A DNA stretch of 26,692 nt from a virus, in the IMG/VR virus record IMGVR_UViG_3300050821_001110, positions 1-26,692 of that record; one strand, 5' to 3'. The number at the start of each line of letters is the position of its first letter. The first letter of the stretch is position 1. Of this stretch, positions 9,400-26,692 are shown piece after piece. A program made the position numbers and the translations under genes. Under the pieces are notes generated by a model. It was not told the origin of the DNA. It saw only the letters and a list, made by a program, of their open reading frames with translations, and did not search any database.

Positions 9400-11018
9400 T
9401 AGCGTTTGCTTGTCTGAATTGCGCCCACGCGCATTGTGCCGATACGCCAGTTGCCACTGTGAACCGGCGGCGCTGTCACTGTACCCGCACCATCAGAACT
9501 GAAGTTTGCCACACTGTTGCGCGTGTACGTTGCCTGCGTCATAGCATCACCGAGCGAGTAGTGAAAGAGAACTGTCGGCCCAAGCAGAAGCGACGGGTCA
9601 TACTGCGAGAAGCGAAGCCGAACCTGTCGCGCCTTAACGCGAACATTGGCGGGTTCGTTCTTCATAATGAATGGCCCGTGCGTTGTCTGTGCGCCCATCG
9701 GGCGATTCTGCGCATACACAGTGAGTAGCACGTCTCCCAGATTATCTTCATCTGGAACAAGACGTTCGATGTTCATTAGCGTATCGCCATCACCGATTTC
9801 GGCGGGGCCGCTTTCGACAAAGGGTGTTGGCGAGCCGCTACGGCTGGTGCCCGTTTCGTGATCGTAGACAACGCCGTTGGCGTCAACGAGAACCGGCACC
9901 GTGCCGGGGAGTTCAATTGGCACGCCACAAGTGCGCGAAAGTGACCCGAAGACCCAATGGTTTTCAATATAGTTGTAAGTCACGTAGCTATCAATTTCGG
10001 TCGCTGTGGCACTGGGGTAGAACCACGTTACTTCGTGGTACGCCGGATTCGAGAGCGCCCAGATTTTCCGCGCTAGGGACATATTGATGTTCCCAAACAC
10101 GTAGTCCTGCACTTCACATGGCAGCGGAGTCGTATAGCCGTTGTACTGGAAGAACCCATTCTGTCCCATCCACATCGCCACAGAGTCGAGCGTCACCGCT
10201 GCACGGCTACTAATTATGCCGCATTCATCTCCAACCTTATTGAAGCTGTAGAGCAGGATGCCGCCGATGTACGTCATCAGATGCAAGTCTACGTTGGTCC
10301 AAATCAACGTACCGCCGCGAATGCGCGCCCCGGCCATACCCGCACCTTCTGTAGCGAGCGGAAACGATCCGGCTGAGTTGGTGACAGCGGGAATCCACGT
10401 ATCGGTAGTTTCCTGACTGGCCCAGTACACCGTGCGCGAAAGCGGTGGCGTGTTGGTCGGAGTAACCGGATCATACACCCCGTTCGGATCGTAGCCGCCA
10501 ATCTGAACAAGGAACCGTTCCGGCGTCGTAACAACAGCACGTCCGGCGGGGGGTGCGCCAGAGGCTGCAACGGCGGCTGCGGTCACATCACCCGTCCAGA
10601 CATACAAATGTATATTGATCGAAAAATCACCCTCTACAATTGGTTGGGCGACAAGATAGGAGCCGAATACATCAAGCGTCCAAGTGCGCGCGGCGTTATT
10701 AGAAGGAAAGCCAGCAGGCGTAATATCATGTACGACTCCACTCACAACCACGTACAAATTTGATGTAGTGGCAATCGCGAGAATAGGTGTCTGAGCTACG
10801 GTGCCTGTATCTGGCGTCCAAGCAATCGCAGCACTTGGCGTGCCAACTATCGACGCACCCGAGAGCGTGCGCGGGAGCCAACCACCGACAGGCTGAATGT
10901 TGCCCTGAAAGAAACGCACCAGATTACCGCTGTGCCAACGGCCTTTCGTCTGGTAGACGGTGCCGTTGTTAGCGTAGCCGGGGGGCAATTTCAAAGGAAC
11001 CAGCTTCATGTCGGGCAT
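9399..11018 (-). CDS. podovirus tail hub / stabilization-type protein (539 aa)
   Basis: The N-terminus is characteristic: LKLPPG, then YQTKGRWHSGNLVRF, then PVGGW. This matches the large tail hub or head-tail connector proteins found after the adaptor in many environmental podoviruses; the rest is beta-rich, with repeated W-containing strands (RTWTLDVFG, YLVAQ, AIAWTPDTG), compatible with a propeller-like ring closing the connector. No catalytic motif is evident. ATG at 11018 follows the TAA of the previous gene with no gap; an internal ATG three codons later is an alternative. It overlaps the fibre gene by TAATG, so hub and fibre are translated together. The family call is by recall of the N-terminal pattern, with the structural role inferred from gene order. 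Confidence 0.75.
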   Translation of the reverse strand: MPDMKLVPLKLPPGYANNGTVYQTKGRWHSGNLVRFFQGNIQPVGGWLPRTLSGASIVGTPSAAIAWTPDTGTVAQTPILAIATTSNLYVVVSGVVHDITPAGFPSNNAARTWTLDVFGSYLVAQPIVEGDFSINIHLYVWTGDVTAAAVAASGAPPAGRAVVTTPERFLVQIGGYDPNGVYDPVTPTNTPPLSRTVYWASQETTDTWIPAVTNSAGSFPLATEGAGMAGARIRGGTLIWTNVDLHLMTYIGGILLYSFNKVGDECGIISSRAAVTLDSVAMWMGQNGFFQYNGYTTPLPCEVQDYVFGNINMSLARKIWALSNPAYHEVTWFYPSATATEIDSYVTYNYIENHWVFGSLSRTCGVPIELPGTVPVLVDANGVVYDHETGTSRSGSPTPFVESGPAEIGDGDTLMNIERLVPDEDNLGDVLLTVYAQNRPMGAQTTHGPFIMKNEPANVRVKARQVRLRFSQYDPSLLLGPTVLFHYSLGDAMTQATYTRNSVANFSSDGAGTVTAPPVHSGNWRIGTMRVGAIQTSKR

Positions 11019-11396: not shown

Positions 11397-11614
11397 TAGT
11401 GCTTTCGCGCAACGAGCGCCGCAATCGCTGTTACTACGAAGCTTATAACGGTACTTATGGTGCCACCGAGCCACAAAATCGCACGGCGCTCGCCACGCCG
11501 CTCTGCGAGACTCTCCTTGATTTCGGTTATGTCATCCTGCATGGCCTTCTGCCCTACCAGAAGGTCACGAATAGCCGCGTTGTGCTCACCGAGCGTGAAG
11601 ATTTGATCTGGCAT
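11396..11614 (-). CDS. XhlA-like holin-associated membrane protein (72 aa)
   Basis: Small protein with a helical, charged N-terminal half (residues 1-45, probably coiled coil: DDITEIKESLAERRGERR) followed by one hydrophobic segment at about residues 46-68 (ILWLGGTISTVISFVVTAIA) and a short basic tail (RKH). This layout matches XhlA/haemolysin-type holin partners and similar phage membrane proteins. It could help form the lysis pore or anchor the adjacent DUF5675 protein at the inner membrane. It overlaps the genes on both sides by TAATG. The holin role is inferred from topology and neighbour; no lysis motif is diagnostic. Confidence 0.65.
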   Translation of the reverse strand: MPDQIFTLGEHNAAIRDLLVGQKAMQDDITEIKESLAERRGERRAILWLGGTISTVISFVVTAIAALVARKH

Positions 11615-12240
11615 TACTGAAACACCACGGGAAGCCGGATACCGCGCACGCTTGCGTTATACTCTTCGCGGTCGCGCACATCGTTCAGTTCATCAATTGC
11701 ATTGTCAAAGCCCGTCTGCCAAACCGGAATGCGCTCGTCGTGTTCCAAGAACACCGAGGCCGCGAGCAGTGCGCCAAAGAGATAGGCGTCCGGGGCGGCG
11801 GTGAGCACGATGTTGGTCGTGTTCGTGTTGGACAGCGGAATGAGCGACTGAAAGTATATGATTTCGGCGGTGTAGGTGGCATCGGGCGGCTGTGTCACGA
11901 CGATCTGGCCTGCGATCATGGACACCCAGCGTGGGCGTCCGATAGCGTTTCCCTGCATCGCACGCATTTCTGCCAGCACTTCGGGCGAAACAAGCGTCAG
12001 GGGTCGGTCCAAGTCCGGCTGTCCCGTAATGAGCCGAATGGAGCGCAGTTCAACCATGTCCGCCGGGGGCGCGGTGGTGTCGGAACTAATCGTGATAGTC
12101 GTGCGGACGCTAGTGCGGCGCAGTTTCCGCTTCATCTTGGCTTCCGCTAGTGCGATGAAGTCTGGAATCTGCGCAACCAGATCGGCGCGGTTAAGCCAGT
12201 CCGCAATCGACGCTTGAAGCTCTCCGTAATTGGTCAGCAT
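11614..12240 (-). CDS. head-tail adaptor protein, SU10 type (208 aa)
   Basis: Begins LTNYGELQASIADWLNR, then IPDFIALAEAKMKRKLR, the N-terminal signature of phage adaptor (gp11/SU10-type) proteins that bind below the portal and receive the tail. The middle is beta-rich with conserved-looking PADMVELRSI, PRWVSMIAGQI and YTAEIIYFQ; the C-terminal part is helical (AASVFLEHDERIPVWQ). Length fits the family. It is the first recognised connector gene after the glycosyltransferase, in the usual place between capsid and tail hub. The start ATG at 12240 directly follows the TAA of the glycosyltransferase gene. Confidence 0.82.
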   Translation of the reverse strand: MLTNYGELQASIADWLNRADLVAQIPDFIALAEAKMKRKLRRTSVRTTITISSDTTAPPADMVELRSIRLITGQPDLDRPLTLVSPEVLAEMRAMQGNAIGRPRWVSMIAGQIVVTQPPDATYTAEIIYFQSLIPLSNTNTTNIVLTAAPDAYLFGALLAASVFLEHDERIPVWQTGFDNAIDELNDVRDREEYNASVRGIRLPVVFQ

Positions 12241-12927
12241 TTATACGTCCCCGCCGTTCTGTTCTTTCCATGCTTCGCGAATCACGTTCGCGTGCTGGTA
12301 CTTGTAGGTGAATTCGCCCAGATGCCCAATTTCTTTCGACAGGTCTAGATCAACAAAGGTGGGAATTCCGGCGGTGCGAGCCTTACGGCAGAAGAACACG
12401 TCTTCGCCCTCGTAGTCTTCAAACTTGGCGCTAAAACCAAGCGCGAACCACGGAGCGGGCATGTTGCGGAACACGTCTACATCGACCAATAGAAGTCCGA
12501 AGCCGATATGCGCAACTTCGAGTACGCCGCCATCCGTTTCGTCCATGAATGCGGGCATACCTTTAAGGTCAGTTGCGGTCGGCAGGATCGGCGTGCGGCG
12601 CATTGGATAGTTCGCCCCGACGATCTTTAGGTCGCGATCCAGCAGTCGGATCAAACTGTCCTTGGGGAAACGCATGTCGCTGTCGATCCACAAAATGTGC
12701 GTTGATCCCGACTGGATCGCTTCCTTCACCAACGTCATGCGTTGCTGCGGCAGATATGTGCCGCGAACGACAGACGTGCGAAAAGCGATGTTGGGATGAT
12801 TCTTCGCCACGTCCGCAACGAGCAACGCAAGGTCAAGTGCGAACCCGGTGGCGACTTGATCTTGCGCTGGAATGGCAATCGTGACTTTGTACTGTTTCTC
12901 GCCGCTCGCGTTGAGCAATGCTGGCAT
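12241..12927 (-). CDS. GT-A-type glycosyltransferase (228 aa)
   Basis: Predicted nucleotide-sugar-dependent glycosyltransferase of GT-A fold. It begins with a beta strand typical of GT2-like enzymes (YKVTIAIPAQDQ). The metal/nucleotide-binding DxD motif is D82-S83-D84 in HILWIDSDM. A later GEDVFFC (E175, D176) fits the catalytic-base region and IGHLG (H202) fits the third metal ligand. No membrane segments or signal peptide are seen, so it acts in the cytoplasm. It is embedded in the structural operon between a small conserved protein and the adaptor, overlapping the former by TAATG. Likely substrates are a virion protein, host surface precursor or modified DNA base; none can be chosen from sequence. 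Small glycosyltransferases are known in this genomic position in environmental podoviruses. Confidence 0.82.
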   Translation of the reverse strand: MPALLNASGEKQYKVTIAIPAQDQVATGFALDLALLVADVAKNHPNIAFRTSVVRGTYLPQQRMTLVKEAIQSGSTHILWIDSDMRFPKDSLIRLLDRDLKIVGANYPMRRTPILPTATDLKGMPAFMDETDGGVLEVAHIGFGLLLVDVDVFRNMPAPWFALGFSAKFEDYEGEDVFFCRKARTAGIPTFVDLDLSKEIGHLGEFTYKYQHANVIREAWKEQNGGDV

Positions 12928-25380: not shown

Positions 25381-25939
25381 CACGTTGCCAAACTGCCCGT
25401 ATGGGCTTCATTGGCTAATTTGGATGCGCTTTAGTGCAGCGCACTATATAGAAGGCGTAATATAGCTGGTTCGGGTTCCTTTCGGTAGCTCGTAAGTATC
25501 GTAAGTATGCTCGCAAACGTATCCGTAAGTATTATCTCTATATGCCGCAATGACTTGCAAGCATACAAGCGTTTTTCCCGGTTCACATCCGCTATCCTAC
25601 GTCCCCCAGCCCCGGCGTTCAGTACAAGTAGTGTGTACTCCTTTAGTAGTAGATATAGAATAGAATAACAAACATTACTTACATACTTACATTACTTACA
25701 AGTGCTTATATACCAATGACATAACAAAAACATGACATTTACCAAATGCTTACCAATACTTACGAGTAGTGTCGATCTGGCTACCTGCCTTTCGGGGTTT
25801 GTACGGTTTAGGTAAAACGCAACGATCCTCGCACAATGCGGAACGAAGATAAACCGAAGTAACTGGGCAGAATGCAATACCACGGGCTAAAACGATGCTT
25901 TGAAACTGTGGCACGGCACTTGCAAGGTATCTGGCTGTC
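25381..25939. other. AT-rich control region with repeated GTAAGTA/TACTTAC words (no gene)
   Basis: No convincing gene in about 560 bases between the leftward and rightward operons. GTAAGTA occurs at 25492-25498, 25501-25507 and 25525-25531; its complement TACTTAC occurs at 25676-25682, 25684-25690, 25693-25699 and 25757-25763. The stretch around 25620-25780 is strongly AT-rich. This layout resembles an iteron-type origin or a cluster of operator sites; without a replication protein gene in the window neither can be chosen. Confidence 0.55.
25456..25466 (-). promoter_or_regulatory. shared CGTAATATAGC element, copy 2
   Basis: Second copy of the 11-base word; about 110 bases upstream of the start at 25347 on the minus strand, which fits a promoter for the rightmost part of the leftward operon. 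Confidence 0.4.
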
Positions 25940-26195
25940 GCCGCTCTCCACTCAGGCGCCCCGCTCCGAACGGTCAGTGTTCGGTCACTTCAAGAGAGAT
26001 TTTGAAGGGCTATGTACTCGCGGTATCGCTTCCGGCCTAGGTTCCCTAGGCGACACTCCAAAGAGAGCGGCACTGTTGACGGTTCGCGAGTGACATAGCG
26101 CAGAGGGAACGCCGGGAGTGCCTAAGCTAGCGGATGCTGAGGCAAGACGCTACACCCCGGCGTCTAATGCACAGCGCGAGTCCCAAGTCTCGCGC
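25940..26195 (+). ncRNA. candidate structured non-coding RNA / 5' leader
   Basis: A dense series of perfect stems in the plus-strand sense: CCGAAC/GTTCGG (25966-25971/25979-25984); CTTCAA/TTGAAG (25988-25993/26002-26007); a 14-bp helix (26009-26022/26085-26099, one bulged G) enclosing GCCTAGG-TTC-CCTAGGC (26035-26051); ACGCCGGG/CCCGGCGT (26109-26116/26156-26163) with nested TGCCT/AGGCA; and GCGCGAG/CTCGCGC (26174-26180/26189-26195). In addition GCCGCTCTC (25940-25948) pairs with GAGAGCGGC (26063-26071) and competes with, or makes a pseudoknot with, the 14-bp helix. It ends 27 bases before a ribosome binding site and ATG at 26223. No known class of RNA was recognised; either strand could carry the transcript, and DNA hairpins are another reading. 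Confidence 0.45.
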
Positions 26196-26208
26196 ACACC
26201 CAAACGGC

Positions 26209-26215
26209 AGAGAGG
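26209..26215 (+). promoter_or_regulatory. ribosome binding site AGAGAGG
   Basis: AGAGAGG seven bases before the ATG at 26223; a close match to the anti-Shine-Dalgarno, and the main support for the start of the partial plus-strand gene. Confidence 0.7.
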
Positions 26216-26222
26216 CAACTAT

Positions 26223-26692
26223 ATGGAAAGAAAGGTAGAAGACGTTGCGGCAATCGCGGCGGCGCTGTGTGACATTCCGCTAGCGAGCGGTGCGCACACA
26301 GAAGCGCAAGGCGAGTATTGCGCGCTCGAAGCAGTGGCAAAGGTAACGAAACAGAAGCACAGCGACAACCCACCCAATGTCCCGGCATCTTTGGCGGCAG
26401 CGGGGCGCGCATGGAACGATGCGTTACAGACGGCAGAAGAACGCGCAAGGCTTTTGCGCCCGGTGCTTCCGCTGTTTGTGGGAGCCAGCAAAAGCAAGCG
26501 CGCGGAGAGCCGCCGTGGTTACATGGCGATTGACTGGACAGTACGCACGTTCCTTCCGGCGTTTCTTGACGTTGCGGGGCTGGGCGAGCATGCAACCGCG
26601 TTGCGAAAGCTGAAGGTCATCACGTCGCTTGCGCTTCTGCAAGCGGCACAGAAAAAGATTGAAGCTGCGGATTCGGCTGCGGATTCGGCTGC
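26223..26692 (+). CDS. partial early gene: Ala-rich repeat protein with DW-R-FLPAFL motif
   Basis: Plus-strand gene open to the end of the window, so its C-terminus is missing (at least 156 residues). ATG at 26223 follows a good ribosome binding site (AGAGAGG, 26209-26215). Residues 1-75 are Ala/Glu-rich and helical. Residues about 98-125 contain RRGYMAIDWTVRTFLPAFLDV and AGLGEHATALRKL, matching a recurring 'DW.VRT..PA.L.LAGL..HA..LR' pattern in phage and bacterial hypothetical proteins that go on into Ala-rich repeats. The last residues are AADSAADSA, encoded by a 12-bp tandem repeat, and may start such a repeat region. It is the first gene of a rightward (probably early) operon. Function unknown. 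Confidence 0.68.
   Translation, partial: MERKVEDVAAIAAALCDIPLASGAHTEAQGEYCALEAVAKVTKQKHSDNPPNVPASLAAAGRAWNDALQTAEERARLLRPVLPLFVGASKSKRAESRRGYMAIDWTVRTFLPAFLDVAGLGEHATALRKLKVITSLALLQAAQKKIEAADSAADSA
26664..26692 (+). repeat. 12-bp tandem repeat encoding AADS units
   Basis: GCTGCGGATTCG is repeated at 26664-26675 and 26676-26687, and starts a third time at 26688. It encodes alternating Ala-Ala-Asp-Ser. The window ends inside the repeat, so its full length is unknown. Confidence 0.85.

Follow-up and report, generated by a model that had tools for sequence, protein, structure and literature searches.

The region between positions 25940 and 26195 of a phage genome was described in a preliminary way, from its letters, as a dense multi-stem element that might act as a two-state switch or as a pseudoknotted non-coding RNA, and the question it raises is which kind of RNA stands ahead of the first rightward gene. 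The window, i.e. the whole stretch of DNA that was analysed, is a linear IMG/VR virus record of 26,692 bases. Very probably the element forms the 5′ leader of the gene that opens the rightward operon in a LUZ24/SU10-like podovirus, and a functional type-P5 twister ribozyme lies within it. This explanation is based on sequence, fold, family match and position, from which we infer activity, transcription, the stability of the products and a role for a hairpin lying upstream.

Setting of the element

The leftward genes of the record encode the terminase, an SU10-type portal, the major capsid and an adaptor protein. The nearest named relatives of the capsid include Sinorhizobium phage phiM5, the annotation of which mentions LUZ24-like phages. 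On the opposite side of the element lies the following gene.

26223 to 26690, plus strand: first rightward gene, ATG at 26223, incomplete at the end of the stretch, codon score +0.19

Its codon score is within the range of the phage's own genes (+0.13 to +0.61). An ORF of 73 codons at 25872–26093, which overlaps the element, scored −0.28 against the same range and was ruled out as a coding gene by this value, so that the earlier statement that no plausible gene overlaps the element holds. A relative of the first rightward gene, 33% identical over 110 amino acids, is encoded by MT835534.1; a linkage of the ribozyme to this gene family was sought in the 20 kb around the relative, and no Rfam match was obtained there. 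The rightward operon is probably early, by analogy with the divergent layout of PaP3. A promoter scan gave candidate sites only at about the chance number. The divergent intergenic region contains, at 25489–25770, three copies of CGTAAGTAT together with TTACTTACA on opposite strands, which may be operator or origin sites.

A second record, IMGVR_UViG_3300021406_000053, is identical over the region, and a single genotype is known for the ribozyme region (identical records L083 and L088). No DNA relative of the intergenic region was found among the named phages searched. A search for a continuation past 26692 returned the known identical record and one record lacking the gene and any ribozyme above the cut-off. 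Both records of the region end in a 12-nt tandem repeat within the first rightward gene (26664–26692 here; 10801–10904 in L088), probably an assembly break.

Identification of the type-P5 twister

The cmscan search placed the Rfam family Twister-P5 at 26099–26192 with 38.6 bits, only 1 bit over its gathering score of 37.6, and with E-values of 7e-5 (whole stretch) and 3.5e-6 (sub-region). It was the sole Rfam family in the whole stretch, and in the element region nothing else appeared up to an E-value of 5, neither a known aptamer class nor a second twister upstream; Twister-P5 was matched in none of 14 control genomes. The earlier statement that no known RNA class was recognised in the element thus does not hold, a family being present above its gathering score. 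The alternative suggestion, a non-coding RNA with a pseudoknot in front of the first rightward gene, proved right in kind, since twister RNAs are defined by a double pseudoknot, although it missed the known self-cleaving class. The parts of the ribozyme are the following.

26099 to 26195, plus strand: type-P5 twister self-cleaving ribozyme, Rfam RF02684, from the cmscan match, core and stems
26100 to 26107, plus strand: GCAGAGGG, one P2 strand and internal loop L1, from the sequence and the P2 pair probabilities
26100 to 26102 with 26168 to 26170, plus strand: stem P2, GCA with UGC, pair probabilities 0.70–0.72
26109 to 26163, plus strand: stem P1 of 8 bp (26109–26116/26156–26163) with an apical insert of 39 nt
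26119 to 26152, plus strand: candidate H-type pseudoknot in the P1 loop (26119–26123/26140–26144 and 26128–26132/26148–26152, 5 bp each)
26165 to 26166, plus strand: predicted cleavage site U26165/A26166 in the UAAUGC motif, from its sequence position, U-A next to P1
26174 to 26195, plus strand: stem-loop P4, GCGCGAG-UCCCAAGU-CUCGCGC, 7 of 7 pairs canonical, holding the conserved L4 loop
26166 to 26222, plus strand: 57-nt leader left on the mRNA after the predicted cleavage, from the sequence and the fold of the 3′ product

All the conserved core positions are present in 26099–26195, and the core GCAGAGGG...UAAUGC-ACA...GUCCCAAGUC is identical to the commonest forms among 154 phage copies. The order of the strands is that of type P5 (GCAGAGG, P1 hairpin, UAAUGC, P4): the P2 strand with L1 (GCAGAGGG) is followed by the P1 hairpin, by UAAUGC and by P4 with the loop UCCCAAG, the conserved L4, at 26181–26187. 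The optional fourth P2 pair is absent. The sequences of GGG 26105–26107 and CCC 26182–26184 allow the pairing proposed, after the family model, as pseudoknot T1. The pair closing P1, A26108-C26164, is non-canonical and adjoins the active site. The two helices in the P1 loop were spotted post hoc, such a pair occurring in 0.8% of dinucleotide shuffles of the loop.

In the unconstrained minimum free energy fold of 25930–26230, P1, P2, P4 and the upstream hairpin form together, with pair probabilities of 0.70–0.75 for P1 and P2 and 0.41 for the outermost P1 pair; P4 is part of the minimum free energy structure for the entire leader as well as for the 3′ product. Twister cleaves at the U-A adjoining P1, and its cleavage persists without P1 (PMC5408937). 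The 57-nt leader would carry, in order, a 5′ AAUGC, the P4 hairpin and the Shine–Dalgarno sequence GAGAGG at 26210–26215.

Within the lineage of the phage the ribozyme lacks conservation, since none of 46 records with related capsids had a match over the cut-off; seven loci of the capsid relatives contained no Rfam family.

The upstream hairpin

Folding energy below that of dinucleotide-shuffled sequence, named beforehand as a sign of a structured RNA, was found for the whole element (z −2.4, 3/200; z −2.5, 1/150 in a second run), and its described richness in stems is borne out by 11 inverted pairs of 7 bp where 2.8 were expected (p 0.006). The excess stability comes from 26009–26100 (z −3.6) and 26099–26195 (z −3.3), and none from 25940–26008 (z −0.8). 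Upstream of the ribozyme the features are these.

26009 to 26099, plus strand: upstream hairpin of 14 bp with a bulged G26092 (arms 26009–26022/26085–26099), the 3′ arm ending directly at the ribozyme core
26035 to 26041 with 26045 to 26051, plus strand: GCCTAGG hairpin of 7 bp in the loop of the upstream hairpin, exact
25940 to 25948, plus strand: 5′ arm of a 9-bp long-range pairing with 26063–26071, exact, near chance level

The GCCTAGG hairpin and the 9-bp complement were both as described beforehand; the 14-bp closing helix exists too, but the perfect stem claimed for it does not, owing to the bulge. Its pair probabilities in the unconstrained fold of 25930–26230 are mostly 0.94–0.98, with one of 0.50. 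The 14-bp hairpin is not due to chance, a helix of this length being reached in 1 of 200 shuffles (p about 0.005); no flush helix of at least 14 bp was found upstream of 154 other phage twister-P5s, where the maximum was 11, or at 1000 random positions of the stretch. An HDV-like double pseudoknot, suggested for the upstream part by the order of strands alone, was discarded, as no such Rfam match was obtained.

The 9-bp pairing arises in 4.5–13% of shuffles, has zero probability in the nested ensemble and, when forced in the nested model, costs about 9 kcal/mol. It had been thought to conflict with the 14-bp helix, with which it has no base in common; because 26063–26071 lies in the loop of that helix, both could coexist as a pseudoknot. 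An H-type pseudoknot of this kind, together with the 14-bp hairpin that is not due to chance and a 3′ end that ribozyme cleavage would define, could make 25940–26098 a non-coding RNA in its own right, pseudoknotted, which the ribozyme would release and stabilise. This is unlikely: the segment has no Rfam match and no DNA relative among the named phages, the pairing is near chance level and 25940–26008 is no more structured than shuffles.

It is similarly unlikely that the upstream inverted repeats are DNA sites, operator or origin, of the divergent regulatory region and that the RNA fold is incidental. The similar z values of the hairpin on the two strands (−3.6 and −3.8) and the TTACTTACA and CGTAAGTAT repeats in the same region agree with such sites, but the end of the hairpin coincides exactly with the ribozyme core, and a helix as long was met at none of the 1000 random positions.

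Twister-P5 copies in other phages

Exact-core scans of IMG/VR, the exact-letter pattern of which misses diverged copies, gave 9 and 106 stretches; after simple checks of P1 and P4, 140 copies were kept, i.e. about 140 further twister-P5s in phage contigs. When ORFs of at least 60 codons were considered, 91 of 132 copies (69%) had the first base of the ribozyme between −6 and +2 relative to a stop codon, against 98 of 2800 controls (4%). A ribosome binding site with an ORF followed within 9–60 nt in 84% of copies against 14% of controls, the median distance to the next start codon being about 29 nt. The present copy agrees with the others in its position before the ribosome binding site, its start codon lying 35 nt after CCCAAG where the median is 29. 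Unlike in most phage copies, no gene ends directly upstream.

Copies within one locus are on the same strand, up to 20 per record by the covariance model, and in 23 of the 44 intervals that separate one copy from the next, exactly one ORF fills the space. Same-strand series, commonly with one ribozyme per small gene, were observed in L189, L136, L171, L155, L084, L104/L112/L090 and L334; that of L155 belongs to a leftward small-gene operon divergent from the terminase and portal genes. The occurrence of copies at many gene boundaries along one strand suggests that phages use twister-P5 to cut long messages into single-gene pieces, which would amount to a processing of polycistronic mRNA.

The permutations scanned were types P5 and P1. 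The type-P1 pattern, of similar gap widths, gave as many stretches as the P5 pattern; its 50 validated copies occupied 47 loci, nearly all singly, and none lay within −6 to +2 of a stop codon. Applied to the genomes of bacteria and archaea, the P5 pattern gave only 32 stretches, which, by a rough estimate of its chance rate, need not be real. A succession of cores resembling twister, accompanied by a long stem of P5 type (AGTTGTAAT / ATTACAACT), was noticed by eye in L086 at about 10250–10338, minus strand, with no Rfam match over the cut-off. L242, a virus contig fetched by the type-P1 pattern, contains two type-II hammerheads above the gathering score (11555–11622 and 12400–12466, minus strand).

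For covariation, the present copy was aligned with 67 other phage copies that share its L2/P4 spacing (68 in all), and P1 and P4 were assessed, the letters of P2 being fixed by the search pattern. P1 and P4 are supported by covariation in the family, being canonical in 84–100% of cells with many pair types. The present copy, canonical at 5 of 6 P1 and 6 of 6 P4 positions tested, conforms except for the A-C first P1 pair. With one known genotype, the present copy itself, its hairpin and its P1-loop pseudoknot offer no covariation.

The marginal score, the A-C first P1 pair and the long P1 insert might also be those of a decaying, inactive relic that has kept its core letters and cleaves poorly. 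This is rather improbable, considering that all the conserved core letters are intact, as are the 8 bp of P1 and the 7 bp of P4, that the first P1 pair is non-canonical also in about 18% of the 154 phage copies, and that twister cleaves even without P1.

A two-state switch, in which the upstream hairpin or long-range pairings would exchange with the ribozyme and toggle cleavage or translation, is very improbable and without support, since the upstream hairpin co-folds with P1, P2 and P4 without competition and the 9-bp pairing has its energetic cost. In its favour, the 3′ arm of the hairpin and the 5′ arm of P4 have the 7-mer CGCGAGT in common, 25940–25947 can pair with the Shine–Dalgarno sequence, and in some folding windows the unpaired probability of the latter is 0.25–0.37 before and 0.73–0.77 after cleavage. 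Sequestration by 25940–25947 was nevertheless rejected, as the effect depends on the folding window and is mostly lost when more 3′ sequence is included, and as 12 of 60 shuffles of the upstream segment attain it.

Comparison with known systems

The functional twister preferred here agrees with RF02684 in core letters, strand order, stems P1, P2 and P4, U-A cleavage motif and a match above the gathering score; it differs by the 39-nt P1 insert able to form an H-type pseudoknot, by the A-C first P1 pair and by the flush 14-bp hairpin upstream. The class is already known, and the present copy is a further twister-P5.

The closest precedent is the HHphage hammerhead of haloviruses HF1 and HF2, which precedes their first early ORF by 13 nt; the 5′ end of the transcript was mapped there to no more than 3 nt from the cleavage site (PMC3088659). 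In both cases a self-cleaving ribozyme stands in a phage leader, close to the ORF with which a polycistronic early transcript begins, whereas the ribozyme class and the host domain differ, the predicted cleavage site here is 57 nt before the start codon, and it is predicted from sequence, while the halovirus transcript end was mapped. Tandem hammerheads flank genes in prophage-like operons, for example Agrobacterium ardA (PMC3088659). They resemble the phage twister series in that one polycistronic RNA carries several ribozymes between its genes, and differ from the present stretch in class and in number, three copies against one twister. In Pseudomonas phage PaP3 (L338) a core resembling that of a hammerhead, CTGATGA...CGAAA, was observed at 44076–44106, minus strand, in the leftward operon, where it separates orf67 from orf66 and has a stem II of 5 bp; it may or may not be the active intergenic hammerhead reported in this phage (PMC3088659).

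Proposed mechanism and significance

Upon transcription of the leader, the stems P1, P2 and P4 would fold together with both pseudoknots and the RNA would cut itself at U26165|A26166. The 3′ product would be the mRNA with the 57-nt leader, beginning with a 5′-OH and the P4 hairpin, and the 5′ product a non-coding leader ending in the P1 hairpin. The 14-bp hairpin, abutting the 5′ end of the core at the place of the P5 stem, probably stacks on P2 and stabilises or insulates it.

Twisters and hammerheads are reported to cluster with one another and close to genes of Mu-like phages (PMC10085705), and their bacterial and phage roles are considered unknown or largely speculative (PMC10085705; PMC5408937). 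No description of twister series at successive phage gene junctions was found in a limited search of the literature, and an earlier one is possible. By analogy with the many phage twister-P5s at gene junctions, their general role may be to divide phage transcripts into individual mRNAs, the ends of which are protected by hairpins. A further idea, which falls somewhat short of probable, is that type-P5 twisters punctuate the small-gene operons of many phages, with about one per junction at most, as a protein-free mRNA processing, and that the present leader is a version in which the flush hairpin replaces P5. The P5 permutation would be favoured because its topology predicts that each end created by cleavage is protected by a hairpin: the upstream mRNA would terminate in P1, and the downstream one would carry P4 close to its 5′-OH.

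The dense twister series of other phages, a by-product of the analysis, are of more interest than the present single copy. A twister in the leader of a phage's first rightward gene, together with series elsewhere that run from stop codon to ribosome site, leads to the testable proposal that self-cleavage processes phage mRNA.
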